Made by a program: the position numbers and the translations under genes. A DNA stretch of 64,000 nucleotides from Brachycybe producta (Eukaryota > Arthropoda > Diplopoda > Playtdesmida > Andrognathidae): the NCBI GenBank assembly GCA_036925085.1, contig JAUPFP010000001.1, positions 20,237,229 through 20,301,228 on the forward strand, in the 5' to 3' direction. Shown here piece after piece: positions 2,764 to 38,090 of the stretch. The notes beneath the pieces were generated by a model. It had not been told where the DNA came from, did no database searches, and saw only the letters and a list, made by a program, of their open reading frames with translations. Each line of letters begins with the position of its first letter. Position 1 is the stretch's first letter.

Positions 2764-5700
2764 ATGTTGAAGCTGATTCTAATCTCAATGGCCATTTGTC
2801 ATGTAGTCTCTTCATTTGAAGGTAAATTAATGAAAGAATTAAGATGGCTCTATAGATATTTATTTTGCTTTTGTCATCCCCCTAGATGGCGCCACTGCAG
2901 TAGCTAATGCTAAGCCCTTCATAGACGTTTTCAAAAAAGTTAGACGCAAAAACGTCAAGCGAACGTTTTTTTAGAAACAGCATATTAATAAAAAAAAAAT
3001 TCAAATTGTATTCAAAACTAGAATGGTAAAAAATTTTAATAAATTTTTTTTAAAAAAACATTTAGCATTATCATCACCAACTATTCTAGTTTCTAAAACA
3101 CTGAAAGTTTTTTTTGTTAATGTTTTTTTCCTGAAAAACGTTTACTTGAAAGATATCAATTTTCGCAAAACCGCAGGTGAGCGAGAAGAAATCTCCTAGC
3201 CACACAGGATCACCATCCCGGGGGTGGAGATATTAAAACAAAATAACTATCTATTGAGCCACCTTAACAGCAGAGTGATTGTTGTGCCTGTTACACATTT
3301 TCTTTAAGAGGTTTTATCGCAAAATTACTTCGAAAAATCTCCACAAAGAGTGCTAAGAATGCATCGTATTTCCATTGAGCCCATAGACCGGATGTTAAAG
3401 AAGAAACGTTAATTTTTAAAATTTACACAGTCGCGGCGGCAATATGTTTATTTTTCATATTTTAAGTTGTCCAGGATTAACTTTTCAAAGTGCAATATGC
3501 ACCTTAAATGTATGCTGATCGAGTGTTAGAATGACAAAAATTTGATAAGTGCGGTTCTATTTTTAAAAACTATTTTAGAATAGCGAATTTCTAACTCTTA
3601 TGTTAAACTCCATTGAGTACGCCCAAGTAACAAACCAATTAGAAATTGATGACGTTCATAAAAGGGTTGAGCAAAAGAAATTCTAATGCTGGGCACAATT
3701 GCCTGTGATAAACTGTAGTTTAATTTTGCTACTATTATCCCATCCCCTTTTTAGATTTGAAAAAGAAAATGAGTTTTTCATTTTCTCTGGTGTGCGCATG
3801 CGCGTCGTTTGTTCCTTTTTTACTCCTTTCATTTCAATTTCAGTTCCCCCTCCCCTTTTTTCTCTCTTTTTTCCCTCTCCCCCCTCTACACTTTCCAACC
3901 TTTTCCCCCTCTCCAATTTAATATCAATGGGGTTCTTGGATGGGGAGAGTGCAACATATAGTTGACCTTGAGAAAAAAAGCAGTTCATTTATTCAAATTT
4001 ATATAAATTCCGACGTGCTTCAAGGTTTGTACAGCGTTAAACACACATACACAGACCTGGCTTAATATATATATATATATATAATTTTCTATATGTTAAT
4101 TCTTAGAAACCAATAAACACCATCTAGAACGTAGATCAGGTGTAGGTTCTAGCAGTGGAGTTCTCGTTGAAGATACTAATGCCATCGTTGAAGAACCTAA
4201 TGCCATCGTTGAAGAACCTAATGCCATCGCTGCAGTACCTAATGCAAACGTCGAAGAATCTCCTCCTGCGCATGACGACAATCACATTTATTGCCGTAAT
4301 CCCACACCGTCTTATGGAAGATACTTCGGAGGAATTGGTTTAACAGTTTGCAACGCAAGAAGGCCTGGTTATCACATGGAAGCAATGTTTGCCTTGTGCA
4401 CTAATCGACGTGAAGTGCATTACGGCGATTTCTTTATAAGAGAAAATGTAAGTAGAAAAAGGGGGAGGGGGAGGGGGTAAAGGGATCACAAAGTATTATG
4501 AGGTGGGGTGGGGGACAGGCGCAACCAGGTTTTGTTGCGCCCCCCCCCCCCCGCCATATAAAACTTTGTGTCCCTTTAACTCCCTCTCCAAATAGCCCTC
4601 ATACTGGGTGGGGGTGCTATTTTGATGAACGGCGGAACAGGTCTGAACAACTATAGGAACAGTCGGAAGGTCAGGAAAGGTTAGGTAATTAAGCTTGTTG
4701 CAGGAGGTCTGGGGGCGCAGCCCCCCCCCCCCCCCCATTTCTTAAAGAATTATTGAAAAAAATTTGTCCATTTTTCTGACCGTTCCTCCCATTAATCAAA
4801 TTAGGAAACAGTCGAACAATGGACTAATTTGATTTAATAAGTCTTTAAAAACTGGAGGCTGTGCCCCTAACCACCCTGCAACAAGCTGAATTTAACTAAA
4901 CCTAACCTTCCAACTGTTCCTACTATTTTTCCGACTATTCCTACGCCGTGCCCATTGATCTCTATGAACATTTACTGGTACAATGGGTACATTTACTGGT
5001 TCATCCAGAAAAAGCGTCGACCGATCCCGGTCGGTTTGGACCCGGCAGAGTGGTAGGCAACCCCGGGCCCACTTTTGACCAACCGTGGCCGAATCTGACC
5101 GAAAATGGCCAAAAGTGGTCATGGGAGCCATACGTTGGGAACGGTAAAAAAAGTTACGCCCCGGGGGAGTAAACCCCTAGGATTATTTGACTTGGTTGCG
5201 CCCCCACCCGCCACTTAAAACTTTGCGCCCCCTTACCTCCCTCTCTACGTAGCCCTCATACTGGGTGGGGGTGCTATTTTGATGAATGGCGGAACAGATT
5301 TGAACAACAGTAGGAACAGTCGGAAGGTCACGAAAGGTTAAGAAATTAAGCTTGTTGCAGGCGATCTGAGAGGCGCAGCCCTCTAGTTTTTAAAGAATTA
5401 TTAAAACAAATTTGTCCATTGTTCCAACCGTTCCTCCAGTTAATCAAATAAAAGAACAGTCAAACAATGGACTAATTTGATTTAATAATTCTTTAAAAAC
5501 TGGAGGCTGTGCCCCTAACCACCCTGCAACAAGCTTAATTTAACTAAACCTAACCTTCCGACTGTTCCTACTATTTTTCCGGCTATTCCTACCATTGTTT
5601 TGACCGTGCCTCTGCCATGCCCATTGATCTCTATGAACATTTACTGGTGCAAGTTTGTCGTTTTTAAAAGTAAATATTAAATGAAAGTCGATTTATTTTT

Positions 5701-6596
5701 GAAATTAACTGAATAAATTAAGCGAGCGATTCGGAATCACTCAATTTATTCAATTATTTTTGAAAATACATAACTTTCCTTTCGTTTTTTGCGCTCCCAA
5801 ACCTCCTGCGCCCCCCCCCCCCCCCCCCGCAGTTGCGGGTCTTGCGGTTGCCTAGCTACTCCCCTGATGCAAATTGATGCCAGCAACCCTATATACCGAC
5901 GCTTATATATCGGCCCTTATTGTCCATGGTGGTTTCCGACCCTCTTAAATGGCTATGCCAGGTATTGCATCATACTTGTCTCAGTTACACTGATAGCCTC
6001 TTATAAGCTATGGAGAGCTACTTTTTTATATTCTCAGCCACATTTGTGTTCTGTGCTCACACAACTTTCAGAAGAGAAAAAAAAAGCTTCCATATTAAGA
6101 TATTCTTTCACTAATGTTCATTCATTTTTTTATAACCCCCGTTCTAGGTACAAGAGCTTTGTCGAAGCGATAAACCAAAACCGAAACATGTTGTCGTAGC
6201 TTACATCACACAAGCGAATTTCCATCTTCGCAACGCAATAGAGCAACAAGTTTCCATTTTTATTAGCTGTGACCGTTATTCCATGACAGTACGCATTTTT
6301 TTTGTTTTTGTTTTTTTCATAAAAAAATTACTCAGTGCTAACCTCTCAGTTAATTTGAAATTTAATTTTATTAGGTTGCTGACCAAAGCTGCCAAGTTAA
6401 ATTCAACGAAAGAACAGTCTTGTTTGATAACAGAGAGCGCAAACAGCCCGTACAAAAAGAAAATGGCAATCGATTCTTTTTTGTCTCGCTGACTAAAAAG
6501 GGTCTTGCTAAACTTACTGCTCCCCCACCCCCTCCTTCAACCTTTATATTTCCATCTCTACTAGTTGCTTGTCCAATTCTAAATACTTGCTGCTGA
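2764..6596 (+). CDS. Tandem family copy A: predicted secreted Cys-containing protein, 253 aa, four exons
   Basis: Exons by eye: 2764-2821, 4107-4447, 6148-6288, 6375-6596; all introns are GT-AG with phases 1, 0, 0, and the joined frame is open. Exon 1 encodes a signal peptide (MLKLILISMAICHVVSS). Exon 2 has a variable heptapeptide run (NAIVEEP) and then YCRNPTPSYGRYF, PGYHMEA and a third Cys. Exon 3 has the core HVVVAY and SIFISCD. Exon 4 starts VADQSC and ends with a proline run plus a hydrophobic tail ending NTCC. I do not recognise the family. Copy B matches it exon for exon. The start is the only ATG in exon 1 and is shared with copies B and D. Function unknown; secretion is inferred from the leader. 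The hydrophobic tail might be a GPI-type signal, which is a guess. Confidence 0.8.
3300..3600. repeat. Fragment of TTAA-flanked long foldback family
   Basis: Begins TTTAAGAGGTTTTATCGC and shares the block CAGTCGCGGCGGCAATATG and the TAAACTCCATTGAGTACG end with the full palindromes at 38930-39500 and 41866-42663. Only one arm is present. A second one-armed fragment lies at 13630-13860 in the matching intron of copy B. Confidence 0.6.
3615..4085. repeat. Dispersed repeat shared with 26660-27190 and 27230-27575
   Basis: Starts with half of a P9-like element (ATTGATGACGTTCATAAAAG, then TAATGCTGGGCACAATTGCC), continues through a C/T-rich tract and ends in an (AT)n run at 4067-4082. Two further copies lie between copy C exons. 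The open frames through the C/T-rich stretch are composition artefacts. Confidence 0.6.
4490..5850. repeat. hAT-type non-autonomous element cluster with poly-C/G tracts
   Basis: Repeated blocks include CTGTTCCTACTATTTTTCCG, GCAACAAGCTTAATTTAACT and G-run or C-run tracts of 14 or more at about 4541, 4720 and 5811. The same family is clearer at 14595-15281, where both ends read CAGTGGCGTAGCTAGG, a terminus common in hAT MITEs. Here at least two copies are fused in tandem and the ends are eroded. It lies in the exon 2-exon 3 intron of copy A. Confidence 0.55.
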
Positions 6597-6604
6597 GTTT
6601 CTAA

Positions 6605-7369
6605 TGGCGCATTCACACTAGGCTGATTAATCAGCTGCTGGTTGCTGTTTGCTGGTTGCAGCCAGCTAGCAGCATAGTGTGAACCGCTACCAGCAGCTGC
6701 TTTCTCCAGCACACTAGTGATTTTAACAGTGGCTGGTGAAGTTGAACATGTCCAACTTTAGCAGCTACCAGCTGGTCATGTGACTCCCTTCCTGCTGCTA
6801 CCAGTGTGTAACTCCACTGCTTGGATTGGTTGTTATTAGACTTGAATGACTTGTGCTGCTAATACCAGCAGCTAGTGACTGGAAAAAGCGGCAGTCACAC
6901 TAGGCTGGTTTACAAGCCGCTGGTTGCTGCTGGCTATTAGCAGCAACAGCAAGCAGCAGCTGCTTTGGGTTCACACTTGTCCAGTCACTGCTGGTATTAG
7001 CAGTGCAAGTCATCCAATCACCGTCTTGCAAAAACGCAAAATCTAACAACAACCAATCCAAGCAGTGGAGTTTCAACTACCACTAGTGACACTACTAGCA
7101 ACAAAAAGTTCACACTAGATGGCAGCAGCAGGAAGGGAGTCACATGACCAGCTGGTAGCTGGCCACTGTTAAAATCACTAGCCCGCTGGAGAAAGCAGCT
7201 GCTAGTAGCAGTTCAGACTATGCTGCTAGAGCGCTACAACCAGCCAGCAGCAACCAGCGGCTGGGAAACCAGCCTAGTGTGACTGCGGCAAAAGCAGCCA
7301 CTGCTTGCTGTTGCTACTAATAGCTAGCAGCAACTAGCGGCTTGTAAATCAGTCTAGTGTGAATGTGCC
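6605..7369. mobile_element. CAG/CTG-rich foldback element in the 3' end of copy A
   Basis: Begins TGGCGCATTCACACTAG and ends with the inverse CTAGTGTGAATGTGCC, flanked by CTAA (6601-6604) and TTAA (7370-7373). The interior is rich in inverted CAGCAGC/GCTGCTG tracts, and a second inverted pair near 6893 and 7285 suggests a nested copy. It starts 8 bp after the copy A stop codon. Copy B lacks it (TGAATACCTAACTTTG at 16044), giving an empty site. A TTAA-type target suggests piggyBac or Kolobok relatives; that is inference. Confidence 0.7.
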
Positions 7370-7464
7370 TTAACTTTGGAAATTTTTATTGCAAAATCAA
7401 CCCCCCCCCCCCTCCGAATTAACATTTCAAACTTATGATGCAGTTTTAAAATGAAACTATAGAG

Positions 7465-7822
7465 CAAGCATGTCAAACTCAAAGGCTAACACGGGCCAAA
7501 TAAACAATGGCCTAAGTTCATGTGGGCCGCAAAAAAACAAAAAACTTCAATTTTTATAGAAACGTAGGTTTTGATTTCGAAATGAACAACGACAACAGTG
7601 AAATAATGTTTTCCTCCTGTGACACTTGGCATCTCTTTTCTGCTACAACTTTTCCTACTTGGGGGGGGGGGGGGGGGGAAGGGGGGAATCTTGTTCGCAT
7701 TGATTACTTTCAAAACTAACCAAAATTGAATGTCAGTAATCCTGGATCTGACAGGGGCTGGGCCACAAAGATATTCGTTGCAGGCTGCATGCGGCCCGTG
7801 GGCCGTGAGTTTGACATGCTTG
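7465..7822. mobile_element. hAT MITE, CAAGCATGTCAAACTC termini
   Basis: Terminal inverted repeats CAAGCATGTCAAACTC and GAGTTTGACATGCTTG are flanked by an exact 8-bp duplication CTATAGAG (7457-7464 and 7823-7830). A G-run of about 17 lies near 7662. A partial relative is at 30415-30612. An 8-bp duplication and these termini fit the hAT superfamily. No transposase is visible. Confidence 0.85.
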
Positions 7823-7830
7823 CTATAGAG

Positions 7831-8157
7831 CACAGAATAAGGAGAAGTACAGAAGGGAAACTCGTGCGGCGCCTTTGAAGTTGCTGTGACAGAATTTCAT
7901 GACCTTGGACTGAAAACTTCTCTTATTTTAACAGGTTACTTGATAGCCGCCACTGTTGAATGTAATACTGCATATGTGAAAGTAATACATTTCCAAATGG
8001 CGGTTTTAACCGGTTACTTGATAGCCGCCATTTTGGTTGTATTACTGCATATGTGAAAGTAATACATTTCAATGTGTGGTGGCGCCACACATGCGCAGAA
8101 AAATTCTGTCACTACTTAATTGCTCAGTTTCACTTCTGTTGTTCTCCTTATTCTGTG
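7831..8157. mobile_element. hAT MITE, CACAGAATAAGGAG termini
   Basis: Inverted ends CACAGAATAAGGAGAA and TTCTCCTTATTCTGTG, flanked by CTATAGAG on both sides (7823-7830 and 8158-8165). It shares its left target duplication with the preceding MITE. Internally it has two direct copies of GGTTACTTGATAGCCGCCA (about 7935 and 8012). Confidence 0.85.
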
Positions 8158-8284
8158 CTATAGAGTATATAATGTACATTATACACAGTGTCAATAAAAA
8201 AAGAATATAAACTGTTTCAACACTACATGTTATTATCTTTTTTGTTGTTGAACTTAATTTGAGGTCCTGGTTTGGAAAACAAAA

Positions 8285-8960
8285 TGTAACACCCAGCAAC
8301 CTGCGATCCTGCCAAAACCATAGCTCGGGGGGGGGGGGGGGGGTAAACAACTCCTGTTTGTCTCTCCCTCCTCTCCTAATTAAAATTCAGACGACGGATT
8401 GATACTCTTAGGACCATGGTCACTTGGACCTGGTTACACCTCGTAGGTGTACACAGGTCCAAGGTATAAAAGGACCATGTTCCTTTTTGTTCATTGTCCT
8501 TCTCTTTGTTCAACTTTGTACTACATAGATTCTTATACGTACCACATCATGGGCTCAAGGACGCATCTTTGATAAAACATATTCATTCTTGTACTCTTAA
8601 CGTTTCTGAGCAAGGATCAATAAAAGCGTTACAATGAGAAACTGCATTGTCTTTATGTTCGGTAATTAATACTTCTCTACAGAGGCCGGAGACACCATAG
8701 GGCAAGGAGACATACGATCCTGGAGCAGCTACAGCATCTTCATTTGGGTAAACAACAAAGGAAGATGCATATCAGCGTCGACTACAAGAAAGATGGCCAC
8801 CATCCTTCTGCACCGATTTCACCCCCATGCAGGAGGATGATTGCAATCGATCTCCATCCGACTCTTTCTGTAGCTCGAAGCTTCTCCGTGCGGGCACCGC
8901 ACGATGCAGAAAAGGAACGAGCTATAGAAATCATCATCATCAAGTTGGTAAAATATTAGA
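8285..8960 (+). mobile_element. LTR-retrotransposon-like fossil fragment
   Basis: A segment of about 397 bp opens TGTAACACC and closes TCTCTACA (8285-8681), with a TATAAAAGG box and an AATAAA signal in the usual LTR order, followed by about 280 bp of shared downstream sequence. Related copies are at 17947-18600 and, inverted, 33240-33873. It looks like an old non-coding remnant. The LTR assignment rests on terminal TG/CA and signal order only. Confidence 0.45.
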
Positions 8961-9149
8961 GTCGACGTCAAAAGCTAACAAAAATAATGATGATTGCTTT
9001 TCGAAAAATCTGCTATTTTCTTAAAGCACAGAAAAAGTGTAGCTTCCTTAGCATCCTACTCACTTTGCGATTCTGTACAGAATGCGATTTTCTCAGCAAA
9101 CTTACTCGACCGATTTTTACACAGGCATCTCTGCCTAGCACTAACTTTT

Positions 9150-9935
9150 GGTTTGTCCCAAAGCTAGCTTCATGCTCTGGCGAAGGCAAAAACCTGAAGC
9201 TCTGACGTCATTTTTGAAGCTTCGCAGGCTGCTTTGCCGCTTAGCAAGGGAGTATAAACCAACCCCAAAGCTTAGCTTGTTCACACATACCTGTGGTCTT
9301 GCAAAGTTTACCCTATTCTATAACCTTTATATCCTATAAAACAGATACACAAAACAATAGAACCCTTTCCCCTTCTGGAAGAAAAAAAGGTGTGACTTGT
9401 TCACCCCTTTTGTGTATCCGTTTCCTGATTGGTGCTTTGAATTGCTAAGCTTTGAAAAGTTGAATAATTTCAAAGGTAACTTCATGCTCTGGCGAAGACA
9501 AAAATCTGAAGCTCTGACGTCGTTTTTGATGCTTTGCAGGCTGCTTTGCCGCTTAGAAATTAAGTATAAACCAACCCTCACTAAGCAGCAAAGCAGCCTG
9601 CGAAGCTTCAAAAATGACGTCAGAGCTTCAGGTTTTTGCCTTCGCCAGAGCATGAAATTGTTCAACTTTTCAAAGCTTAGCAACTCAAAGCACCAATCAT
9701 ACAACGGATACACAAATAGGGTGAACAAGTGACACCTTTTTTTGCTTCCAGAAGGGGAAGGGTTCTATTGCTTTGTATTACTGCTTTATATAAGGGTAGA
9801 AAGGTTAGAAAATATTGTGAAGTTTGCAAGACCACATGTTTGTATGAGCAAGCTAAGTTTTTGTGAGCTCATTTTTAGGAGCTTCAAAAGCTTGCGAATC
9901 TTAGCAAAGTTTGGAGTATAAACCTACCCTTAGTG
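9150..9935. mobile_element. Foldback element, nested or compound
   Basis: Two arms of roughly 320 bp meet near 9575. Matching inverted landmarks include CATGCTCTGGCGAAG (about 9171 and 9483) against CTTCGCCAGAGCATG (about 9640), and ACCTGTGGTCTTGCAAA against TTTGCAAGACCACATG. The ATAAACCAACCC motif recurs near 9255, 9568 and, in variant form, 9919. The open frames across it are shadows of the palindrome. Confidence 0.7.
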
Positions 9936-10549
9936 TAATGAATTTAAACCTAAATTCATGCACCACATTTTTTTACTTTTTAGATGCAATATTTTTTTAA
10001 AAAAATAAAACGGTTCTCAACAATAAGGTTGACGTAGAGTTAGTTAACAGCTGTTTCACACGTTAAGACTTACAAAATCGTAAAACATGTATTCTGTGTT
10101 ATTCTTATCATGTGATATGCAGTACTTTTATATTATTATAACACACTGTGCAAATGTAGAAAAAATTGGCATAAACATTGGCATTTTCTTTAAAATATCA
10201 GTATTGAGAACATTAAAGAGGAAGATTTTTTGGCCATTTTTAAAAGTTTGTTATAATTTCAAAGCAAAATTACAACATCCCTCGTAAGTATGGCATAATT
10301 TACTGATTTCTCATATGATTTATTTTAATTTGCTAAAACTAACTCTACTAAAAACACAGGGTGCGCTGCAGAGGAAACGCATGCTTTTCAAATAATTAAA
10401 ACTCAAGTCAATTTTGAATATTAAAACTTGCAACCTCTCCTCGAAATTCTGCATTGCTCTTCCCAACATTTTTTCTTCCCAGAGTAGCGATTTTTCTTGG
10501 CGAATGGACTTTTTCATCTAATAGACGTTGCTTAGTCATAGATGGTGCG

Positions 10550-11606: not shown

Positions 11607-14600
11607 ATGTTGAAGCTGATTCTAATCTCAATGGCCATTTGTCATGTAGTCTCTTCATTTGAAGGTAAATTAATGAAAGAATTAAGATGGCTCTATAGAT
11701 ATTTATTTTGCTTTTGTCATCTCCCTCCCTCCCCCTCCCCCCAAATCCGGTTGACGTCAATGTAGTAGCTAGTACTATGCTCCACACTCCACAGACGTCT
11801 TTTTGATAAAAAAAAATTTGCATGCGAAAACGTCAAGCAAAACTAGAATGGTGACTATGGTGTAAGATAATGAACACAGGTTTTTCCTGGCAATATCGTA
11901 AAAAAATCTGTTTTTTTTTTTTTTCTTTCTTGAAATAAAATCTGTAGCTAAGCTAGAAAACTGCATATAAAGCTAACAAAAAGGGTGTGATAGAGCTTTA
12001 GATTTCTTTCCAACTTAATGAGTACGTCACCTGAAGATTGAAACGGTTGGGGGGTCACTACAGCTACCAAGGCTCACAAGCGCTACTAGCGGGAGAACGC
12101 TATCTACTTGGGTCACTACAGCAACCAAAAAAATATAACTCTTTCTCCCTAACCAAACCTTACTTAATGAAACCAAACCGAACCTTACCTAATAAAACAA
12201 ACCTAACCGAACCGAACCTAACCGAACCTAACCGAAACTAACCGAAACTAACCGAAACTAACCGAAACTAACCGAAACTAACCGAACCTAACCGAACCGA
12301 ACCTAACCGAAACTAACCAAACCGAACCTAACCTAACCGAAACTAACCGAAACTAACCAAACCGAACCAAACCTAACCGAACCAAACCTAACCGAACCAA
12401 ACCTAACCGAACCAAACCTAACCGAACCAAACCTAACCGAACCAAACCTAACCGAACCAAACCTAACCGAACCAAACCTAACCGAACCAAACCTAACCGA
12501 ACCAAACCTAACCGAACCAAACCTAACCGAACCAAACCTAACCGAACCAAACCTAACCGAACCGAACCTAACCGAACCGAACCGAACCGAACCTAACCGA
12601 ACCTAACCGAACCGAACCTAACCGAACCGAACCTAACCGAACCGAACCTAACCGAACCAAACCTAACCGAACCAAACCTAACCGAACCAAACCTAACCGA
12701 ACCAAACCTAACCGAACCAAACCTAACCGAACCGAACCTAACCGAACCGAACCAAACCTAACCGAACCAAACCGAACCGAACCAAACCTAACCGAACCAA
12801 ACCTAACCGAACCAAACCTAACCGCACCAAACCTAACCTTACTTAATGAAACCGAACCGAACCGAAACTAACCAAACCTAACCGAGCCAAACCTAACCGA
12901 ACCTAACTTAATGAAACCTAACCGAACCGAATCTAACCTAAACTAAACGTATTGATAAAAAAGACCTATATTTTTTGGTAGCTGTAATGACCCAGGTAGC
13001 TCTAGTGAACCAGTCCCGATTGAAAACACATGCTCGTATTATACAAGTTTTAAGAGGAAAATGAAGACAATAAAAATGCATATAAAATTATATAGCCTAC
13101 TATAGTAACCATTTGGGCCCAAATAGAAGACTCAAACATGTCCTGTAGAAGGAAGAAAGAAAAACGTACTGTTCGTACAACAACAAAATAAATAAAATAT
13201 TGAAAACATCCAGCTTTATTAAATGTGACACAACTTCACGCAAGAACAAGTCGAGAGCTGCTCGTAATGGCGATCATTTCAAAATTTTAAAAATCTGTTT
13301 GTTGCCAAACCGGTACAGATTTCCATCAATCCCATCACGGCCGCGACGAAATGTGTTGTACACGGAGGCTAGCCTCTGACGGAGATTTCTAGTTAATAAG
13401 CCATTAAGCAGGACGGACATAAGGACATGAACCAAATAAAAATTGACTTTAATTATTAATATTTTAAATTCAAATACTAAATCAATATTTTAATGTCAAT
13501 AGTTTATATAATTATATTTAAGTTAATTAACTCAATATTTTCAGATTATTAACTGAATAAATTAAATTCGACATGTTGTTTGTTTGCCCTTTCACAGGGC
13601 CCCAGACTACTTCGAACTACTTTACTACTTTACTTCGAAAAATCTCCGCAAAGAGCGCTAGCATCGTTTTTCTATTGAGCCCATAGACCCAATGTTAAAG
13701 AAAAAACGTTAATTTTTAAAATACACAGCAGTCGCGGCGGCAATATGTTTATTTTTCATATTTAAAGTTGTCCAATTTTGATGGTTTAAAGTGCAATTTG
13801 CACTTTAAATATATGCTGATCTAGTGATAGAATGACAAAAAAAAATTGATTTTCGGCTTTTTCAAACCCATTAACATGAATTGATACCCACCAGTCTCCA
13901 CTTTCAACTTTCACTGGTTGCCAAAACACCATATATAACCTCATACATTAAAATGGAACATACAGTTCACTATTTCATTTCGATGCAAAAACACTAACAC
14001 GATTAACATTTAAACTAACAACGATATTAATAGAATTAAATCTTAAATAATTTTCTATATATTAATCCTTAGAAACCAGTAAACACCATCTAGAACGTAG
14101 ATCAGGTTTAGCTTCTAGCAGTGGAGTTCTCGTTGAAGAACCTAATGTCATCGTTGAAGAACCTGATGCAAACGTCGAAGAATCTCCTCCTGCGCCTGAC
14201 GACAATTACATTTATTGCCGTAATCCCACACCGTCTTATGGAAGATACTTTGGAGGAATTGGTTCAACAGTTTGCAACGCAGGAAGGCCTGGTTATCATA
14301 TGGAAGCAATGTTTGGCTTGTGCACTAATCGACGAGCAGTGAATTACGGCGATTTCATTATAAGAGAAAATGTAAGTTAAAAAAACAAAAAACATGCTAC
14401 ATGCTAATCAGATACTAGTTTTTGCAAAGACTCAACAGCAAGACCGGATCTAGGTGAGGGCCAGGGCCGTCTTAGGGCATGTCGGGGCTTTTGCCCGCCA
14501 CCGCCGATCCATAATTAATTTGCGGCACACACGTCTAGGCGCCAAACGAGTTTTTTTTTCCCCTTGCTTCCAAGCAAGGTGGGTTACCCCTACTCAGTGG

Positions 14601-16046
14601 CGTAGCTAGGCTTGGTTGCGCCCCCCGCCACGTAAAACTTTGCGCCCCCCCCCCGGGCTGCTTAAAACGTTGCGCTCCCTTTAAGTCCCCCTCCACTTAG
14701 CCCCATACTGGGGGGAGGTGCTATTTTGATGAACGGCGGATCAGTAAGAACAGTCGGAAGGTTTAGTAAAATGAAGCTTGTTGCAGGGGGCCTGGGGGCG
14801 CAGCCCCCCATTTTTTTAGCGTTATTAAATCAAATTTGTCCATTTTTCCGACCGTTCCTCTCATTGAACAAATTACAGAACAGTCGGAACAATGGACTAA
14901 TTTGATTTAATAATTCTTTAAAAAAAAAGTCGGGGTCTGCGCCCCCCAGAACCCCTGCAACAACTTAATTTTACTAAACCAAACCTTCGGACTGCTCTTA
15001 CTATTTTTCCGACTGTTCGTACCGTTGTTCGGACCTTTCCGCTGTTCATCAAAATAGTACCCCCTATAAAAATTTCTAAGCACAATAAACGAAATGAAAG
15101 TCGATTTATATTTGAAAATAACTGAATAAATTAAGCGAGTGATTCGGAATCACTTGCTTAATTTATTCACTTATTTTTGAAAATACATCGACTTTCATTT
15201 TGTTTTTTGCGCCCCCAAACTTCCTGCGCCCCCCCCCCCCTCCGCAGTTGCGGGTCTGGTGGGTCCCTAGCTACGCCACTGCCCGCCCCTCCCATGAATA
15301 TTTACTAGTGCAACTATGTAGTTTTTAAAAGTAAATATTAAATGAAAGTCGATTTATTTTCGAAAATAAATCGACTTTCATTTTGTTTTTTGCGCCCCCA
15401 AACCTGCTGCGCCCCACCGCAGTTGCGGGTCCTGCGGGTGCCTAGCTACGCCAGTGCCCATACTAGAATTTTGCTCCCGTTATTTATAACGGGTTACCCC
15501 ACTAGAAATTCTCTCCCGTCATTTATGACGGGTTACCCCCACTAGTATTTAGATATTTTCCACTAATGTTTATTCAGTTTTTTTTTATAACCTCATTCTA
15601 GGTACAAGAGCTTTGTCGAAGCGATAAACGAAAACCGAAACATGTTGTCGTAGCTTATATCACACCAGCGAATTTCCATCTTCGCAACGAAATAGAGCAA
15701 CAAGTTTCCATTTTTATTAGCTGTGACCATGATTACATGACAGTACGCATTTTTTTTTTGTTTTTACATAAAAAAAATTACTCAGCGCTAACCTCTCAAT
15801 TAATTTGAAATTTAATTTTATTAGGTTGCTGACCAAAGCTGCGGAGTTCCATTCAACGAAAGAACAGTCTTGTTTGAAAACAGAGCGCGCAAACAGCCCG
15901 TGCATAAAGAAAACGGCAATCGATTCTTTTTTGTCTCGCTGACTAAAAAGGGTCTAGCTAAACTTACTGCTGTCCCACCTCCTCCTAGCAAATGTTTAAT
16001 TCCTGCTCTACTAGTTGCTTGTCCAATTCTAAATACATGCTTCTGA
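11607..16046 (+). CDS. Tandem family copy B: predicted secreted Cys-containing protein, 239 aa, four exons
   Basis: Exons 11607-11664, 14073-14371, 15602-15742 and 15825-16046; GT-AG introns with phases 1, 0, 0; open joined frame. Exon 1 is identical to that of copy A. Exon 2 is 42 bp shorter because it has two fewer heptapeptide units. Cys positions match copy A except near the C terminus, where the last residues are NTCF and an extra Cys lies in the proline-rich stretch. A hand count against copy A gives about 29 amino-acid-changing and 11 silent codon differences outside the heptapeptide tract. AATAAA at 16151-16156 is a plausible poly-A signal about 105 bp after the stop. Introns hold the telomere-like array and hAT and Helitron pieces. 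Family and function not recognised. Confidence 0.8.
12120..12950. repeat. Telomere-like pentamer array (NAACC), about 830 bp
   Basis: Made almost entirely of pentamers TAACC, GAACC and AAACC. TAACC is a rotation of the arthropod telomere unit CCTAA/TTAGG. In the middle part the three types alternate regularly, giving a 15-bp higher-order period (TAACCGAACCAAACC). It lies in intron 1 of copy B and has no counterpart in copy A. The minus-strand open frame (MVRLGLVRLGL...) is a by-product. Confidence 0.9.
13395..13600 (-). mobile_element. Short TIR element (TACCTAGTACACAC family), partial, inverted
   Basis: Matches, inverted, the middle of the elements at 22736-23035, 24196-24490 and 32072-32385: GACATGAACCAAATAAAAAT, an AT-rich core, then GAATAAATTAAATTCGACAT. 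The terminal repeats are missing. A related fragment in plus orientation is at 17000-17225. Confidence 0.55.
14595..15281. mobile_element. hAT-type MITE, CAGTGGCGTAGCTAGG termini
   Basis: Left end CAGTGGCGTAGCTAGG at 14595, right end CCTAGCTACGCCACTG at 15281, about 690 bp, with C-run tracts near 14640 and 15229 and the TTTTTCCGACTGTTC block inside. The 8-bp flanks no longer match, so it is probably old. A partial copy follows directly at 15282-15455. It lies in the exon 2-exon 3 intron of copy B. Confidence 0.7.
15460..15551 (+). mobile_element. Two tandem Helitron 3' ends
   Basis: Twice in about 80 bp there is a short GC hairpin (CCCGTTATTTATAACGGG, then CCCGTCATTTATGACGGG) followed by TTACCCC and ACTAG(T). 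A hairpin about 10 nt before CTAGT is the classic Helitron 3' terminus. The inverted form ACTAGTGGGGTAACCC occurs at about 26628 and 27200. Confidence 0.65.
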
Positions 16047-17549: not shown

Positions 17550-17744
17550 GTGGCTGACCAATATTGTGGCACTGGATTCAACAGGAGGACAATTTCATTT
17601 GGTGATTGCAGCGAAACGGACTCAAAAGAACTTAATTGCGGTGCTGGCGTCCATTTTGTCACTTTAATCACAGCATCAACTTCTCCACTACAAGGAGGCT
17701 TGTTTGCTTCTATAATGTATTATTTGCGTTGCAAATGCCTCTAA
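17550..17744 (+). CDS. Orphan last exon of the tandem family (exon 4-type)
   Basis: Preceded by a good acceptor (TTTTGTATAG), phase 0, starting VADQYCG and closely matching copy C exon 4 (NRRT, DSKELNCG, HFVTLITAS, SPLQGG, SIMYYL), with 65 codons including the stop. No matching exons 1-3 lie between it and copy B. It could be the relic of a lost copy, or an alternative terminal exon for copy B, since both last exons take a phase-0 acceptor. Its open frame supports recent function but does not prove it. Confidence 0.6.
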   Translation: MADQYCGTGFNRRTISFGDCSETDSKELNCGAGVHFVTLITASTSPLQGGLFASIMYYLRCKCL

Positions 17745-22277: not shown

Positions 22278-22735
22278 TCAAAGCTGCCAGTCTGGTTTGA
22301 ATTTTAAAACAGCACACATTCAATTTCATTTATAAAACCACACACAAACCTAATGCAGTTCCTACAGTTTCATTTGCTGTTAACTTATGACGTCATACAA
22401 TTTGTCATATTTTGCAGCTGAAATGTTTCCTTTAGTTGTCTGAAACCGTGAAGGTTCAAACAACTAAGGAAAACACCACTGAAACACATTAACAATTTTG
22501 AAACCATTATTATTATTATTAATATTTCAGTTATATAGGCATATATATTAAATTTTAATTTTCCTTTCTTTAAAGAAACTTAAAATACAGTTTTATTTTA
22601 TAATACTTAGTTTCAAAAAATATTAATCATCGTTATTGTATTTTTGTACGAATATGTCAATGGAATTTTTTTGTAAGTTCATTTTTTTTTGTTTTTAATT
22701 ATGCTTTTTTTTATTATGATTCTGAAAGTGTGTTA

Positions 22736-23035
22736 TACCTAGTACACACACCTGACAATTTAAATGCATTTAAATAATAAACGTGTTCTACAGAGGCCTG
22801 TGAAGGACAAACAAACAATATTTCGAATTCAATTTATTCAGTTAATAATCTGAAAATATTGAGTTAATACTTAAATATAATTAAAACTATTGACAAAATA
22901 TTGATTTAGTATTTCAATTTAAAATATTAATAATAAAGTCAATTTTTATTTGGTTCATTTGTCCTTAACTGGATTCCGTATAATTCACCTAAACACATTT
23001 CATTTGAATTCATTTAACTCATGTGTGTGTGTGTG
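22736..23035 (+). mobile_element. Short TIR element (TACCTAGTACACAC family)
   Basis: Opens TATACCTAGTACACAC and closes TGTGTGTGTGTACA; the best copies (24196-24490, 32072-32385) end TGTACAAGGTAT, an imperfect inverse of the start. The core is AT-rich with TTTAAATGCATTTAAATAAT and ACAAACAAACAATA. About 300 bp, no coding. An inverted copy is at 48595-48890. Confidence 0.65.
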
Positions 23036-23716: not shown

Positions 23717-24195
23717 CATTCACTTGAATGAGTTTTAGAAACTAGAAGGGTAGCTCAATCACTGAAGGGTATTTTCATGTTGACATCTTTCAAAATGAAC
23801 TTTTTTATAGACCAAAAATTTACAAAATATCGTCTTGCTTAAAGTTTTGTCATTTTCAAACTCAAATAAAAAGCTAATTTTTTTTTCCGAAGATATCAAA
23901 ATTAAAATTTCCTTAACTTTTCTAGTTTCTAAAACATTTTCAATTTTTTTTTTCTTTCTTAATTTTGATTCTCAAAAACAGAAAAACAAAATTTTGAGTG
24001 GCATTTACAAACTTTAAAACCACCTTAATGATATTTTTCATTTTGTTGTATTCAGATTCAGCTATAATATTGAAGATTTTTCTATTTTGGGCTATTGTCG
24101 TCTTTCAATTAGAAGGTACAAATTATATCAATTAGAAATTACACCAATGCGCAACACCTGCAGCACCACTGACGCAGTTTTTGCTTTGTCACCCT

Positions 24196-24490
24196 AATAC
24201 CTAGTACACACCTGATAATTTAAATGCATTTAAATAATAAACGCGTTCTACGGAGCCCTGTGAAGGACAAACAAACAATATGTCGAATTCAATTCAGTTA
24301 ATTAATCTGAAAATATTGAGTTAATACTTAATTATAATATATAAACTATTGACAAAAATATTGATTTAGTATTTCAATTTTAAAATATTAATAATAAAGT
24401 CAATTTTTAATTTGGTTCGTGTCCATAACTGGATTCCGTATAATTCACCTCAACACATTTCATTTGAATTCATGTGTGTAAAAGGTATAA
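24196..24490 (+). mobile_element. Short TIR element (TACCTAGTACACAC family)
   Basis: Near full-length copy: ATACCTAGTACACACCTGAT at the start, GTGTGTAAAAGGTATAA at the end, same AT-rich core as its relatives. Confidence 0.65.
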
Positions 24491-26205: not shown

Positions 26206-26627
26206 TTATCCTTCAAAATAAACTTTTTATAGGCTTATTTATTTTGAAAGATATCAACATGAAAATAAACTTAAGTGATTAAGCTATACTTACATGCAAT
26301 TAGGTGTTTCTATAGTGTTTAAATGTGTTTTACTAATTTAAATAAATTATGGTATTCATTTACACATATTTATAGGTCATGCACCTATGTCGAAGTACTG
26401 GAGAACCTGAACTTCTACCGAATCAAGTCGTTGTCTCCTATTATAGCGACAACGACGCTTACAGACGTAATGTCCACGACATCAAACATCATGTGGCCAT
26501 ATTTCTTGGTTGCAACCATGACGCCATGTTTGTAAGATCTAAGATCTAATTCAAACAATTTTTTTATTTTGCCCTCTCCCACCCTCTGGTGCAAAATGAA
26601 GAAAAACTTGAAAGTTTATTACAAACT

Positions 26628-27580: not shown

Positions 27581-28009
27581 CTCAGGCCTCAGGGTTTTTT
27601 TTTATGTTGATATCTTTCAAACTAAATTTTGTTTTAGGACATAAAAAAGTTTGTTTTGAAAGGTATCAAAACATGAAAGTACCCATAGGATGGCTGAATA
27701 GATATTTATTTTGTTTTCTTCCACACCCCCTCTCAGATGGCACGTAGATATTGGGATTTTGGTGTGTACAAGGTATAATGTATTATACAGTTATTTAAAA
27801 CATTTCATAGGTTGCTGACCAATTTTGTGAAACAGAATTCAACAGAAGGACAGTATTATTTCAGAATGATTGCCTTGGAATGGACTCAAAAGAACTTAAT
27901 TGCGGCTCTCGCTTCCATTTTGTCACTTTAATCACAGCATCATCTTCTCCACTACAAGGAGGCTTTTTTACTTCTATAATGTATTATTTGTGTTGTAAAT
28001 GCCTCTAGT

Positions 28010-30410: not shown

Positions 30411-30414
30411 GTAA

Positions 30415-31005
30415 AATTAATGTTTTCTTCCTGTGACACATGGCATCTCTTCTCTGCTACAATCTTTCCTACTTCGGGGGGGGGGGGGAATCTTGTTTGC
30501 AGTGATTACTTTCAAAACTGAGACAAGTTCAATGTCAGTAATCCTGGATCTGATAGGGGATGGACCGCAAAGATGTTCGTTGTGTGCTGTGAGTTTGACA
30601 TGCTTGATATAGACCAGGGGTGGCCATAGCGTGGCTCGCGAGCCACGTGTGGGTCTCGCAGGCGAGTGGTGCGGCTCTTATGCTAGTAAGTACTATTAAG
30701 CCGCACGCCTAGTAATTATCTAAACACTAATGTATTGCCGACGTTTACGGTTGCGGTCGTATGTCTTTTCTTAGCCACGAAATGGCGTGATGAATCACGT
30801 GTGCTAAACACTCTTGTCTGATTTGTTCCAGGCGTCCGAGGGGAGGGGAGGGAAGATCTGTTGGTAAACTACTAAACTTTAAAAAATTGAACTTATTTTT
30901 CAGTTTCTCATTGTTTGTTTTCTTATCAAAGATCAATAAATGGCTCTTTCAAATATTCCTTCCTGAAATGTGGCTTCCAAACTTAGTGTAGCTGGCCACC
31001 CCTGG
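30415..31005. mobile_element. hAT MITE fragment followed by CAGGGGTGGCCA hAT element
   Basis: 30415-30612 is the right part of the CATGTCAAACTC MITE (ends GAGTTTGACATGCTTG). From about 30621 a second element opens CAGGGGTGGCCA and closes TGGCCACCCCTG near 31004, typical hAT termini, with ATAGAC on both flanks. Inside is an (inverted) AATCACGTGTGCTAAACAC stretch but no transposase I recognise. Confidence 0.7.
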
Positions 31006-31084
31006 ATAGACTGTTATATAAAAAAAACTTTTGCTCAAGTTACAGTTGGTTAATTATATTTGATGGAAGATTATTACTTATTAG

Positions 31085-31792
31085 TAGGGTTGGTAATTTG
31101 TGTGATTTTTAGACCTTCATTTGTGTTGTGATTTGTGTGAAAAAAGTGGTCATTTGTGTGAAACAATTTGATTTTCTTCTTTCACGAACTTATTTCTCGA
31201 GTACAAATAAACAGGCTATCACATGAATTAATGGATGATATCATTACAATAGCATATTTAGTACACAATATCGTACTTATTCATTTAAGAAAAGCATTGA
31301 AATGCACAACGTTATACATTTTAAGGTTTTCTGTGGTAAACTGTGTGCGATTCTTCCTCAGAATGGCCTTATAGATGGAAAATGAACGCTCAACATCTAC
31401 AGATACAAGTGGCGCATACAACACTTTCTGTTTATGACTAAAGCTATTTTTAGAATCTGTAAATTTTATCAAATCAGGATTCTTTTTCAGAGATTTCTGC
31501 AGCTAACGAAGTGGCTCATCTTTAAGATGTGATTGAACACTATCGAGAATAGTGAGTTGCTCCTGTAATGTATTAAGACTAGTGTACATATTTTTAACTT
31601 TTTTTGTGACATATTTGTGATTTTTGTGCATTTATTGCACTTTTGTGTGATTTCTCCAAATTTTTGCCTAATTGTGTGATTTCAATTAGTGCTTATTAAG
31701 CTTAATTTGCATAGTTTTGTAAATATCTGCTAAAAGTAAGCTGAATAATTGAAAAATAAAATAGTTGTGATCAGAAATCTTTACCAACCCTA
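31085..31792 (-). mobile_element. hAT element with transposase dimerisation-domain remnant
   Basis: Ends TAGGGTTGGTAA and TTTACCAACCCTA, flanked by an exact 8-bp duplication CTTATTAG (31077-31084 and 31793-31800). A minus-strand frame near 31281-31472 reads PLVSVDVERSFSIYKAIL followed by MYNVVHFN, the hAT C-terminal signature. The rest of the transposase is missing: an internally deleted copy of 708 bp. Confidence 0.85.
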
Positions 31793-32071
31793 CTTATTAG
31801 TTAGTGTTTTTCTGAAGGGCGAGCACAGACAACAGACAATCGGTGGTAGTCTGAATTGTAGTAATGTCAGTACACACAGCAGACAAGTCAGTCAGATGTC
31901 CGAGGCCAACAATACGCAAGTGCACACGACCGTCAGTTTGTCGGTCGTTGTGCTTGTGCGTGGATGCCTGCCATCATGATGATATCCCACAGCATCGAAC
32001 AGTTCATTCGAGTCAAGTAGTCTGGAACAATGTGTTCCAAACAAATTGTTTCGAGCAATGGGTAAGCGGGC

Positions 32072-32385
32072 CTAATACCTAGTACACACACCTGATAATT
32101 TAAATGCATTTAAATAATAAACGTGTTCTACAGAGCCCTCTGTGAAGGACAAACAAACAATATGTCGAATTCAATTTATTCAGTTAATTAATCTGAAAAT
32201 ATTGAGTTAATACTTAAATATAATATATAAACTATTGACAAAATATTGATTTAGTATTTCAATTTAAAATATTAATAATAAAGTTAATTTTTAATTTGGT
32301 TCATGTCCTTAACTGGATTCCGTATAATTCACCTAAACACATTTAATTTGAATTCATTTAACTCATGTGTGTACAAGGTATAAGT
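32072..32385 (+). mobile_element. Short TIR element (TACCTAGTACACAC family)
   Basis: Full-looking copy from ATACCTAGTACACACACC to TGTGTGTACAAGGTAT, about 310 bp, ending roughly 155 bp upstream of copy D exon 1. Confidence 0.7.
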
Positions 32386-32540
32386 GATTCAACAATTTCA
32401 GCTACCCGTCTAGTTTCTAAAATACTTTTAAAAAAATCAGCTGTTCATTAAATACCTTAATATTTAAATGTCTAACTTTGTAAGTTTTTTTTTTGCAAAT
32501 TTCTTAAAACATTTTTATTTTCTATTAATTTAGTGCAATA

Positions 32541-35500
32541 ATGTTGAAGATTGTTCTCATATTCTTGGCCACTTGCAACATTATTATTAGACTGAATGGT
32601 AATTAATAAGACTAGTAATTATAATGTAAATAAAACATATGACATGCAGACAATTTTTGCAATGTTCTAATTGGTTTGTTGTGTGGTTCGACGTTGAAAA
32701 GGGCGGAGCATGTGACGTCAGACTACATAACCAACCAATTAGAAGTTGCGTTCGTCATAAAAAATGGGCGGAGCCAACTGAAGTTCGTCCCGATTTCTAA
32801 TTGCCTGTCACCAGCATACCATGAGTTTTGCTAGGTGTGTCACGACTTACGAGCGTATTCCTGGCACACACAAAAAAAGTTTGGGAACCACTGTACTACA
32901 CTTTAAGACACATCGTTGTATAATGTAACCCAGAAACCTTCACATTTCAATTTACGAAAAATATTCATTTTTTTTTACATGTTGTTCATTTTTGCAGCTC
33001 TGGAATACATCAAGTGTAGATTTTTTTCAAGAGGCTATGGTAGAGTCATTACTAGCCGCCATAGTGAATCGGACTGCCCTGATAATACGCCTGGATATTC
33101 TTTGGACGCCATTAATAGATTTTGCAACCCTCTTGGCCCCAGGCTGACATTTGGCAAATTTGTACAAATGGAAAATGCAAGTACAAGTGCTTTCCTTGCA
33201 CATTACAAAAAAAAAACATTTCGTAAACCTTGTTAAACTCAGGGCCGTAACTATTGTGAGCGTGCTGGCGATTTCTGACCTCGTGTCGTAACCACACGAG
33301 GAAGATTGGAGTTACCAAAGTAGGCGGTTGGTGATAGATTGTAGTCGTCCTCCTGAGTAGGGGTGAAATCTCTCAGAAGGATGGTTACATCCACTTCTGA
33401 TCGCCGGTGTTTCTTTTTTCTTCTTCCATCGGAAGACGTGCTCCGTAAGGGATCCGTATGTCTTCTTGCCCTATGGGGTCTCTGGCCTGTTCAGAGAAGG
33501 GTTAGTTTCCAAACATAAAGACAACGCAGTTTCGTATATAAACACTTTATTCATTCTTGTATCGAAACAGCAACATTACAAGAATGAACGTTTTAGAATC
33601 AAAGGTGCGTCCACGTGCCCATGATGTGATACGGATAGAATCGACGTAGTACAAAAGTTGAGCGAAAGAGTGGACGAGGACCAAGAGGAACATGGTCCTT
33701 TTATACCTTGGACCTGTGTACACCCACGAGGTGTAACCAAGTCCAAGTGACCATGGTCCTAAAGGTATCAATCCACTGATTGAGTTTAAATATAGACGGA
33801 GGGAGGGACAGAGATGAGTCACGCACCCCCCAAGCTAGCATTCCAGGAGGATCATGACTCACTTGGTGTTACACTATACTGGGTTTTACTGGTCCTCTAA
33901 ACCAGGGCCTTTCTTAAAGGGGTGCCCAAATGACAACACACAACTCTATTTTTAAACCTCAATTTTTTAAGTCCCCCATAGGACCCACATTTAATTTGTA
34001 GCTACTTTTTTTGGTTCTCGGCCTATTGGCCGAGAATCTCCAAAATCAAATGGAGCACATCTACCCCCAAAGACCGTCCTCCTATTGGCGTAGTGGCCCT
34101 TGAACTCGAGTCTCTAGCCTTACCATAAAATGGGACAGACTAATCGTAGGTCACTACGTGACCTACACTTCCAGATAGCTATTTGGAGAACTGTGGGTCA
34201 TTCAGTGACCTACACTTTTCAATATGAACTGTGGGTCACTCAGTGACCTACAATTTTCGATATGAACTGTGGGTCACTCAGTGACCTACAATTTTAGATA
34301 AGAACTGTGGGTTACTCAGTGACCTACACTTTTCGATATGAACTGTGGGTCACTCAGTGACCTACAATTTTAGATATGAACTGTAAGTTACTCAGTGACC
34401 TACACTTTTCGATATGAACTGTGGGTCACTCAGTGACCTACAATTTTAGATAAGAACTGTGAGTTACTCAGTGACCTACACTTTTTGATATGAACTGTGG
34501 GTCACTCAGTGACCTACAATTTTAGATAAGAACTGTGGGTTACTCAGTGACCTACACTTTTTAACATTCTGGGGACCTGCACCCCAAGACCCCATACAAC
34601 AAGCTTAATATATAAAAGAAGTTCTAAAGTGTAGGTCACTGGGTCACCTAGTGACCTACGATAAGTTTGTTCCCCGTACAAATATATTTTTTTAAAAAAT
34701 CATTTATCAACTTCTAGGTGGCGCAAAAGTGTTCCCAAGGAGGAGACTTTCTTGATTTTCCAGAAGATGTTGTTGTTTCTTACTACCAACCAAACATTCC
34801 CTCAAGCAGTAGACTCGAATTGGCAAACCAGGCTTTTATATTTCTTTATTGCGATGAAGAATCTATGGATGTAAGAAATAAATGTTTAAAAACATCTAAG
34901 ACTTGAGACATATTGCTCCCACCCCCTCCCACTTTTGTTAAAAAATATTGACAAATCAGTCAACAGAAGTCATATTCCCAAGTGTTGAGAAGAAATCGTA
35001 CAAAAAGTAACGAAATTACAATTTCAAGTACAATTTCTTCGAATCCGAATCACAAACGGTTTTCGAATCCCTCGAATCTTCTGAATCTCTGGAATCCTTA
35101 TTCATCATCATTTCATGTGCCTTATCCAGCAAGCAGCAGGATCGGCCTTGCTGGTTCTAACTCTCCACTCTTTCCGATTTTGCACCAAGCCCCCAGTAAC
35201 CCCACATGCTACCATATCCCGTTTTACTACAACGTCTCAGGTTTGCTTGGGTCTTCCTCTACCCCGTTTTATTCCCAGGTCTAAGTTCATTGCTTGCCTC
35301 AGCTCGCTGTTTGGCCTCTATCTTGGCACGCTTGTATTCTATCTGGGCCTCCCTGCTTCCATTGTGCCACCAAGTCTTGAAAGCATCTTTCTTCTTTTTA
35401 ACTGCCATCTGTACCTCCTCATCCCACCACCAGGTTTCTCTGTCTAATCGAGACCCCCTACTCGTACTGTCCCAAGTACCTTGTTTCCACAATCACGGAT

Positions 35501-38090
35501 CTGTTGTGCTACCCTTGTCCACAGCTCCCCTGCAGTGCCATCTAAATCCCATGCTATCTTACCTGCCATTTTCTTAAACTCTTCCACCTTGTCTAGTAAT
35601 GCCCACCACCTAATTGCTGTCTCTCTATGTCTGACCACCTGTTTTGCACCCCTAGGTTTTAGGTCTAACACTACTAGCCTATGTTGTCCCGCTAGGTTTT
35701 CACTCGGTATCACTTTACAATCCTTGCACTCGTTTCTATCCTCACTCCGAATCATGAAGAGATCAACCGGGGATTCTCCTGCTCTGCTCTTAAAAGTAAT
35801 GAAATGTTCCTCTCGCTTCTGAAATAGTGTTTGCTAAAATTAACTTATGTGCCACTGCCGCCTCCAGCATACTCTCCCCTGCTTTATTTTGCTCTCCATA
35901 GCCCCACCCACCATGTACCTCTTCATACCCTTCCCTACCTCTACTTACCTGTCCATTAAAGTCCCCACCAATTATGACCCGTTCCTCCCTACTCAGGCCC
36001 AATATCAGGTCATCAAACTGTTCCCAGAATGCTCGTTTCCTGGCTGTATCTAATCCAACCTGGGGCCATATGCACTAACTACATTTATAACAATGCCACC
36101 CCAAACTACCTTTACTACTAACAGCCTACTATTTATCCACCTAACCTCAACGACACTACATCTGAGTTCCTGATCTAGGACAATTCCCACTCCATTTCTA
36201 CCCTCCTCACTACTTGCATAAATTTGTGTATACCCATCCCCAATGTCCCTGGATTTATCACCTTTCCATTTTGTCTCCTGCAGACATGCAACATTTACCC
36301 TCCTAGCCTTTAGCACACCCGATAACTCCCTAGTCTTCCCTGTCAAACTCCCTATATTCCAGGTGCCAAACCTAAGTTTAGTACCTCCACTTTTACCACT
36401 ACTTCCAAGACCTCCTTGTTGTTGATGCTGGACTCGCTTCTTTAGCCCCACCCATCCACTGTGGGGTAGCCCTCGCAAATTTATCACAGCCACTGGGCGT
36501 TGCAGCTGCATGTCGCTTATGGCGGGGGACGCCCTAGCCATATTTGGAATACTATTTAGAACCAACATCATTTGTTTTGGCAAATCTTTACAACCGGCTG
36601 CCAACCTGACGTCGACCCTCCACTTTTGCACCCGGGCTGGGGGACCGGCAATCGCGAGGTTTGGTTTTGGTCTGCCCTGAGTATTTTATGCCCTCAGTAC
36701 CCTCCATAACTGGCGGGCATTCCCCTATCCGCCACCTGGGGAGGCACCCGATAGGGGACCAACAACCCCCTCGGGAAATGAAATAAAATATTATATTAAT
36801 ATAATTTAATATTTAATATTGAAATAAAATATTAAATATTAGATTATATTAATAATTTAATATTTTATATTTTATAATAAAAAAAAGTGTGGCACTCAGG
36901 GTCGCCACAAGGTGATATTGGTGATCCGGATACTACCGAAATGGAGTTAAAACTAGTTTTACCAAAGTTTTTAACAGTTTTTTTTAGGTTAGGATTCGAA
37001 AGATCCGAAAGATGAAAAAAGCGCGAAGATTCGAGTTTTCGAATCTCGAATATTTTTCAAGACTCGAGCGGATTTGAATGTCCCTTCCCTAATTTCAAGT
37101 AATTAGTCTGCCTAAAATGCAGAAAATAAAAATAAACGGGAATCCTAGAAAAAATTATGAAATTTTTGTCGCTCGCTGCGCTCGCAGAAGATATTCTGCA
37201 ATCCAACACTATTTTTTAACTCTAAAAAATTAATAATTGATATTTAATAAGTAATTACTATCGGGAACTGGTTTATTTAATAATTTCATAGTTAATATAT
37301 AAAATTCTATAAACCATTGCAATCACTGGGTATCGATAATATCGATTAGCCCCATCGCAGACCAGAATCCTGGTTGTGCCACTGATGTGTGTGTGTAATG
37401 AGTGTCAGACCAAGTATCAACCAATTGGAAATTGAAAAGGGCGGGGCATGTGACCAGATAACGTAATGTCAGACCGCATAACAAAACAATTAGTAGTTGC
37501 CGGTTCTCATAAAAGGGACGGAGCAAACGACTGTATCTTACTGTCTTTACTTGCCCTTATACCCTCTGGATGGGTGGGGCGTAGAATAATTCCTGTCTTT
37601 ACTTGTCTGTCTGAGCACACAGGCATCTGTAGACAGCTTCAGAATTTCTTTGTCTCCGCCCTTTTATGAGCGTCCGATCAAATATCAACCAATTAGAAAT
37701 AAAAAGGGCGGGACATGTGACATCAGACCCAGTAACAAACCAATTAAAAATTGACGACGCTCATAAAAGGGTGGAGCCAAAAGAAATTCTGAAGCTGTCT
37801 ACAGATGCCTGTGTCTGAGCACAGGATGCCCCAGATGGAACACGTCCACATTCAGTTAATTAACAATAATATATATTTAAAATATTTCATAGGTTGCTGG
37901 CCAATGGTGTGGAGAGGATTTTGAGATAAGAACAATTTATTTTGATGATTGCGAAGAAGTACAAACCAATCATCTTTATTGTGGAAGAGATTTTTATTTT
38001 GTTTCCAACTCTTCAGAATTGATCGTACAGCGTTTTCTTTATAAAACTATGTTGTTAATTTCATTTTTCAGATGTATTTGGTGTATTTAA
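32541..38090 (+). CDS. Tandem family copy D: predicted secreted Cys-containing protein, 195 aa, four exons
   Basis: Exons 32541-32598, 32998-33176, 34718-34870 and 37893-38090; phases 1, 0, 0; open joined frame. Exon 1 (MLKIVLIFLATCNIII) has the same length as in A and B. Exon 2 lacks the heptapeptide tract but keeps CR, YGR, PGY, a Cys about 10 residues later and a final EN. Exon 3 keeps DVVVSYY and FIFLYCDEESM. Exon 4 starts VAGQWC and ends in a hydrophobic tail RCIWCI. The exon 2 donor is GCAAGT, so this would be a GC-AG intron. AATAAA at 38089-38094 overlaps the stop codon. Introns contain an LTR-like fossil, a 38-bp array and an RTE element. Highly divergent from A and B, which argues that the family is old. 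Confidence 0.75.
32650..32808. mobile_element. P9 palindromic element, left end truncated
   Basis: TTCTAATTGGTTTGTTG, GGGCGGAGCATGTGACGTC and the right end CGATTTCTAATTGCCTGT are present. It lies in intron 1 of copy D. Confidence 0.7.
33240..33873 (-). mobile_element. LTR-retrotransposon-like fossil fragment, inverted
   Basis: Inverse of the 8285-8960 element: the LTR-like part spans about 33488-33873 and the shared downstream part lies to its left. It is in the exon 2-exon 3 intron of copy D. Old, non-coding. Confidence 0.45.
34130..34680. repeat. 38-bp minisatellite inside a foldback element
   Basis: About ten 38-bp units (AACTGTGGGTCACTCAGTGA then CCTACAATTTTAGATATG), with two unit types tending to alternate. 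Each unit holds the palindrome GGTCACTCAGTGACC. The array is bounded by inverted flanks CTAATCGTAGGTCACTACG (about 34140) and CTAGTGACCTACGATAAG (about 34655), so array and flanks together look like one foldback element. Confidence 0.8.
35085..36780 (-). mobile_element. RTE-type LINE, internally deleted
   Basis: On the minus strand the 5' region (from about 36780) leads into an AP-type endonuclease: LRFGTWNIGSLTGKTREL, VACLQETKWKG, VSAYGPR, IIGGDFNG. Then come the QHRLVVLDL region and ETWWWDEEVQMAVKKKKDAF. After PGNKTG the sequence jumps to the C-terminal end (RGRPKQT, MVACGVTG, ADPAACWIRHM) and the 3' tail ATGATGATGAATAAGG. The whole reverse transcriptase is missing while both ends are kept. 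Several frame breaks exist in the remaining part, so it is dead. It lies in the exon 3-exon 4 intron of copy D. Confidence 0.85.
36885..37390. other. Unassigned intron sequence with TTCGAATC-type repeat
   Basis: 36980-37090 shares GATTCGAGTTTTCGAATCTC-like sequence, in inverse, with the left flank of the RTE element (about 35035-35100), so the LINE seems to have landed in a dispersed AT-rich repeat. Nothing else recognised. Confidence 0.4.
37395..37560. mobile_element. P9 palindromic element, partial
   Basis: AATGAGTGTCAGACCAAGTA, AAAAGGGCGGGGCATGTGAC and the right end GACTGTATCTTACTG are the family blocks. The left end is truncated. Confidence 0.65.
37619..37812. mobile_element. P9 palindromic element, intact ends
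   Basis: ACAGGCATCTGTAGACAGC to inverse GCTGTCTACAGATGCCTGT, flanked by an exact 10-bp duplication GTCTGAGCAC (37609-37618 and 37813-37822). It ends about 80 bp upstream of copy D exon 4. Confidence 0.85.

Follow-up and report, generated by a model that had tools for sequence, protein, structure and literature searches.

A tandem cluster of genes for small, putatively extracellular cysteine proteins in Brachycybe producta

Among the described systems closest to the cluster reported here are the tandem families of secreted cysteine proteins that are confined to particular lineages; it is like them in its tandem copies, its leader, its broken neighbours and its lack of an outside match, with no feature shown that would distinguish it from such families generally. 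Small GPI-anchored cysteine proteins of arthropods, Ly6 for example, also combine a leader, a disulphide core and a hydrophobic end; this is a likeness in the manner of working only. The cysteine pattern of Ly6 is unlike the pattern found here, and the Pfam Ly6/uPAR family yielded no match. The cluster appears genuine but unremarkable in kind, one more lineage-specific tandem family whose products would be small extracellular cysteine proteins.

Gene models and relationship of the copies

The window, that is, the whole 64,000-nucleotide stretch of DNA that was analysed, contains on its plus strand, from the ATG of the first gene at 2764 to the stop of the last at 38090, three complete four-exon genes (A, B and D), one broken copy (C) and one isolated last exon (X), arranged head to tail:

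2764..2821, + strand: gene A exon 1, with the start and leader and a phase 1 donor
4107..4447, + strand: gene A exon 2, in which acidic repeats of the VEEPNAI type precede CR-x5-YGR and PGY-x2-EA
6148..6288, + strand: gene A exon 3, with VVVAY and IFISC
6375..6596, + strand: gene A exon 4, with VADQSC...RT and a hydrophobic tail, lacking two core cysteines
11607..11664, + strand: gene B exon 1
14073..14371, + strand: gene B exon 2
15602..15742, + strand: gene B exon 3
15825..16046, + strand: gene B exon 4
17550..17744, + strand: X, an isolated last exon whose acceptor is intact and whose frame is open, nearest to C exon 4
about 24067..24115, + strand: C, probable exon 1 relic, weak, without a start codon, phase 1 donor retained
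26376..26531, + strand: C exon 3, open, both splice sites present
27811..28008, + strand: C exon 4, open, acceptor and stop present
32541..32598, + strand: gene D exon 1
32998..33176, + strand: gene D exon 2, with a GC donor directly after it
34718..34870, + strand: gene D exon 3
37893..38090, + strand: gene D exon 4, with the stop

Across their four coding exons, A, B and D have reading frames free of stops (253, 239 and 195 residues, respectively) with intron phases 1-0-0 in all three, and the splice sites are GT-AG in eight of their nine introns and GC-AG in the remaining one, intron 2 of D. The first-pass annotation had proposed three complete four-exon copies, a degenerate copy C and an extra last exon, together with a shared frame of five motifs. 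The models and the 1-0-0 phases hold, and all five motifs (CR-x5-YGR, PGY-x2-(E/D)A, VVV-(A/S)Y, IF(I/L)xC and VA(D/G)QxC-x3-F-x2-RT) were found in A, B and D.

The exons of A, B and C match the D locus in the correct order and phase. A profile comparison of D with A, C and Bx, a hypothetical chain in which B exons 1-3 are joined to X, gave a probability of 99.16 and an E value of 3.1e-19 over 140 columns. The earlier description, in which small proteins with conserved cysteines and a leader form a tandem family, is supported. As a chance control, the D-locus bit score of each of six exon peptides was compared with its best match in each of 100 Markov-shuffled windows; for five of the six queries the D-locus score was reached in none of the 100 shuffled windows, and for the sixth, A exon 2, it was reached in 16. 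We consider it almost certain that the cluster is a gene family.

Searches of Pfam, NCBIfam, PHROGs, the PDB by sequence, IMG/VR and GTDB contigs, among which there is no animal proteome, yielded no significant family match. Rejected candidates included chance-level matches in Pfam (Noc2 with A, E 0.019; Vps8_C with Bx, E 0.29), NCBIfam (BPSL0067, E 0.031; PRK11788, E 0.041; PRK15446, E 0.15) and PHROGs (two families, E 0.23 and 0.53), as well as a chance match that was the sole PDB row (7pkt_G, E 0.66). EBA-175 region VI (PF11556) was matched by the hypothetical Bx chain only, at 19.5 bits (E 0.0012), under the curated cut-off of 27 bits. A cystatin identity was likewise set aside, its profile score being reached by 30 of 60 column shuffles and no Pfam cystatin match being returned. 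The domain is therefore unnamed by the libraries searched; animal proteomes lie outside them and the literature is not searchable by motif, so novelty is not implied and is unproven. The proposal that the cluster belongs to no known family fits every library searched, but the word "undescribed" cannot be demonstrated from libraries that hold no animal proteome.

Several other features of the window were recorded. On the minus strand at 58277-60526 are exons for the ligand-binding domain of an ecdysone receptor, the joined pieces of which best match PDB EcR chains (E 5.5e-80); the seven best PDB rows for the nuclear-receptor ligand domain are all EcR chains, ahead of LXR. This neighbour identifies the DNA as that of an arthropod, with nothing that points to chelicerates in particular. 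At 41568-43706, also on the minus strand, is a short initial segment of a protein, bearing a leader and EGF cysteines of the integrin-beta type (Pfam I-EGF_1, E 0.00048, under cut-off), downstream of which two more cysteine-rich exon-like pieces were seen by eye. Inside the last intron of D, an endonuclease/exonuclease/phosphatase-like frame on the minus strand (36050-36685; E 0.00018, under cut-off) probably belongs to a retrotransposon. There was no tRNA or Rfam match within the window. The region is rich in repeats, with tandem arrays at 12171-12938 (unit 15, AACCGAACCGAACCT), 34188-34561 (unit 38/76 bases) and 61012-61541 (units of 32, then 23 bases). A dispersed repeat roughly 300 bases long is also present, with copies 90-96% identical at 22735-23028, 24193-24490, 32071-32383 and 48589-48898; one copy closely precedes D and another closely follows the C exon 1 relic.

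Leader, cysteines and tail of the predicted proteins

Read by eye, A, B and D each begin with a leader; next in A and B, though not in D, comes an acidic linker containing VEEPNAI-type repeats. The core of D and of Bx holds eight cysteines (exon 2, three; exon 3, two; exon 4, three), and that of A and B holds six, the second and third core cysteines of exon 4 being absent. An even core count together with a missing pair that is adjacent in exon 4 is as expected if those two cysteines pair. The tails contribute three further cysteines in A, three in B and two in D, and the totals of A and B, tail counted, are an odd nine each, which argues for placing the tail outside the disulphide-bonded domain.

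When the last 16 residues were ranked by hydropathy among 424 control reading-frame ends of the window, A fell in the top 2.4%, B in the top 1.4%, D in the top 7.1%, C in the top 9.9% and X in the top 16.5%, and a hydrophobic tail is clear in three of the five last exons. In a combined simple tail test, A, B and D passed and C and X failed, with 33 of the 424 control frames also passing; the tails of D and X contain charged residues. Folded alone, exon 2 was modelled as strand-strand-helix (35-42)-strand (pLDDT 50.2) and exon 4 as a helix spanning 48-63 and nothing else (pLDDT 41.0, low confidence), and these single-exon models are too poor for a fold to be named.

In the proposed working of these proteins, the exon 1 signal peptide, as judged by eye from the leader, would export the protein, and exons 2-4 would form an extracellular domain stabilised by disulphides in a predicted pairing. 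The hydrophobic C-terminal tail may then be replaced by a GPI anchor at the cell surface, or the domain may be free, and once exported it would act as a binding or recognition protein. As a whole, the cluster is best explained as a birth-and-death tandem family of exported, disulphide-bonded recognition domains, free or GPI-anchored, a reading to which we assign a probability of about 0.45. Attachment by a GPI or other tail anchor is a tentative part of it. A role in recognition or defence, suggested by how such tandem families generally behave, is possible and short of probable. The products had initially been called secreted, which agrees with the leader in A, B and D, but a surface anchor is also conceivable, given that the last exons have hydrophobic ends. 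Immunity, reproduction or secretions, the uses suggested in the first-pass annotation, are conjectural, as was stated there.

That same leader would equally be expected in an unanchored, freely secreted orphan protein, such as one of a gland, the haemolymph or an egg coat, in which the hydrophobic ends would be buried strands or a helix of the domain itself. The tails of X and C, unexceptional against the controls, are consistent with this; it sits less well with the odd cysteine totals of A and B once the tail is included, and with the fact that the ends of A/B and of D are both hydrophobic though their sequences differ. Free secretion is a credible alternative, though a doubtful one.

It is unlikely that the part encoded by exons 3-4 is a diverged cystine-knot growth-factor-like domain of the neurotrophin/Spaetzle/coagulogen fold, in which case the products would be secreted ligands or clotting-type proteins and the knot would end in the C-terminal CCxC of copy C. 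The Pfam NGF family (PF00243) matches C exons 3-4 at residues 31-98 with an E value of 0.021, and a short stretch resembles GCRGIDSKHWN; however, this match is not supported, being confined to one of four members at 15.4 bits, under the curated cut-off of 27 bits, and the cysteine spacing is unlike that of the neurotrophins. As with Spaetzle and coagulogen, the predicted proteins would be extracellular and are cysteine-rich, and copy C, alone in having a CCxC end, terminates in CCKC, as in the CCKC of Spaetzle, with an NCG cysteine 29 residues ahead of the CC in both by a count made by eye. In contrast to those proteins, this family has three more cysteines upstream, in exon 2, and A and B are without two cysteines required for the knot; the Pfam Spaetzle family gave no match at E 10 or below. 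Profile scores against neurotrophin were reached by 4 and 5 of 60 shuffles, not convincingly above them, and those against Spaetzle (18 and 30 of 60) and coagulogen (60 and 57 of 60) lie in the shuffle range, as do the full-chain scores against the three (13, 15 and 20 of 60), although thin knot profiles have low power, Spaetzle itself reaching only E 0.01 against the neurotrophins.

Divergence and broken copies

For the preferred reading, a tandem family of exported recognition domains, evolution by birth and death is proposed. The aligned pieces of A and B are collinear throughout, introns included, and on alignment the pair is a recent tandem duplication. Between them, 0 of 58 sites differ in exon 1, 19 of 299 in exon 2 and 32 of 363 in exons 3-4. 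The first-pass annotation had read this family as having a conserved leader and a variable body, and this holds in part: exon 1 does not differ between A and B, yet the surrounding noncoding DNA, where aligned, matches at 97% (12 differences in 470 sites), so the identity points to recent duplication or conversion rather than to selection on the leader, and the D leader is 47% identical over 15 residues. Over 416 bases upstream of the ATG, A and B are 95% identical, and short blocks upstream of A have counterparts in D, at -92..-63 and -177..-146. Because the block at 2420-2640 recurs in the window as many partial copies, the -177..-146 match and most of the upstream match between A and C are probably a dispersed repeat.

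Rates between A and B were dN 0.076 and dS 0.078 by NG86 (219 codons) and dN 0.071 and dS 0.104 by YN00; with dN about equal to dS, constraint on this pair is not demonstrated, and relaxed and diversifying change are indistinguishable. The last exons of C and X gave dN 0.135 and dS 0.202, and D is distant from the other copies, with synonymous sites near saturation. Between the old copies, third codon positions were the most changed in exon 3 of C and B (p 0.003), exon 4 of D and C (p 0.046) and exon 2 of D and A (p 0.157), giving 78/59/105 by codon position when pooled (p 0.0007); exon 3 of D and C, outside the pool, also had a third-position excess (p 0.038). Such an excess is what once-constrained coding sequence would give.

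In copy C, the stretch at 24067-24115 is a probable exon 1 relic, scoring weakly with nhmmer (E 0.012, high bias), and neither exon 2 of C nor exons 1-3 of X were found by tblastn or nhmmer. The exons of X and C are open and have good splice sites, despite the upstream exons being missing or without a start codon, and their phase is compatible with that of B exon 2 or 3. Since the end of exon 2 and the starts of exons 3 and 4 are in phase 0 in all copies, B (or A) might use the intact C exons 3-4 and the lone X as alternative 3' ends, such that a new extracellular domain family would give rise to several surface proteins via cross-copy splicing, an arrangement that we regard as improbable.

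Least likely of all is that the copies are only pseudogenes in a repeat-rich region, none of them expressed, which would account for the loss of the start codon and exon 2 in C, the single exon of X, the near equality of dN and dS between A and B and the abundance of dispersed repeats, but not for the three complete open frames, in which every splice site is present, or for the third-position excess between old copies.

If the family is already present in a known proteome, it is routine. If cross-copy splicing were true, the cluster would be a compact example of cassette diversity. Were other animals to lack the family, it would add a small extracellular domain without a known relative, and the cluster would allow complete copies to be compared with broken ones and with spare 3' exons.
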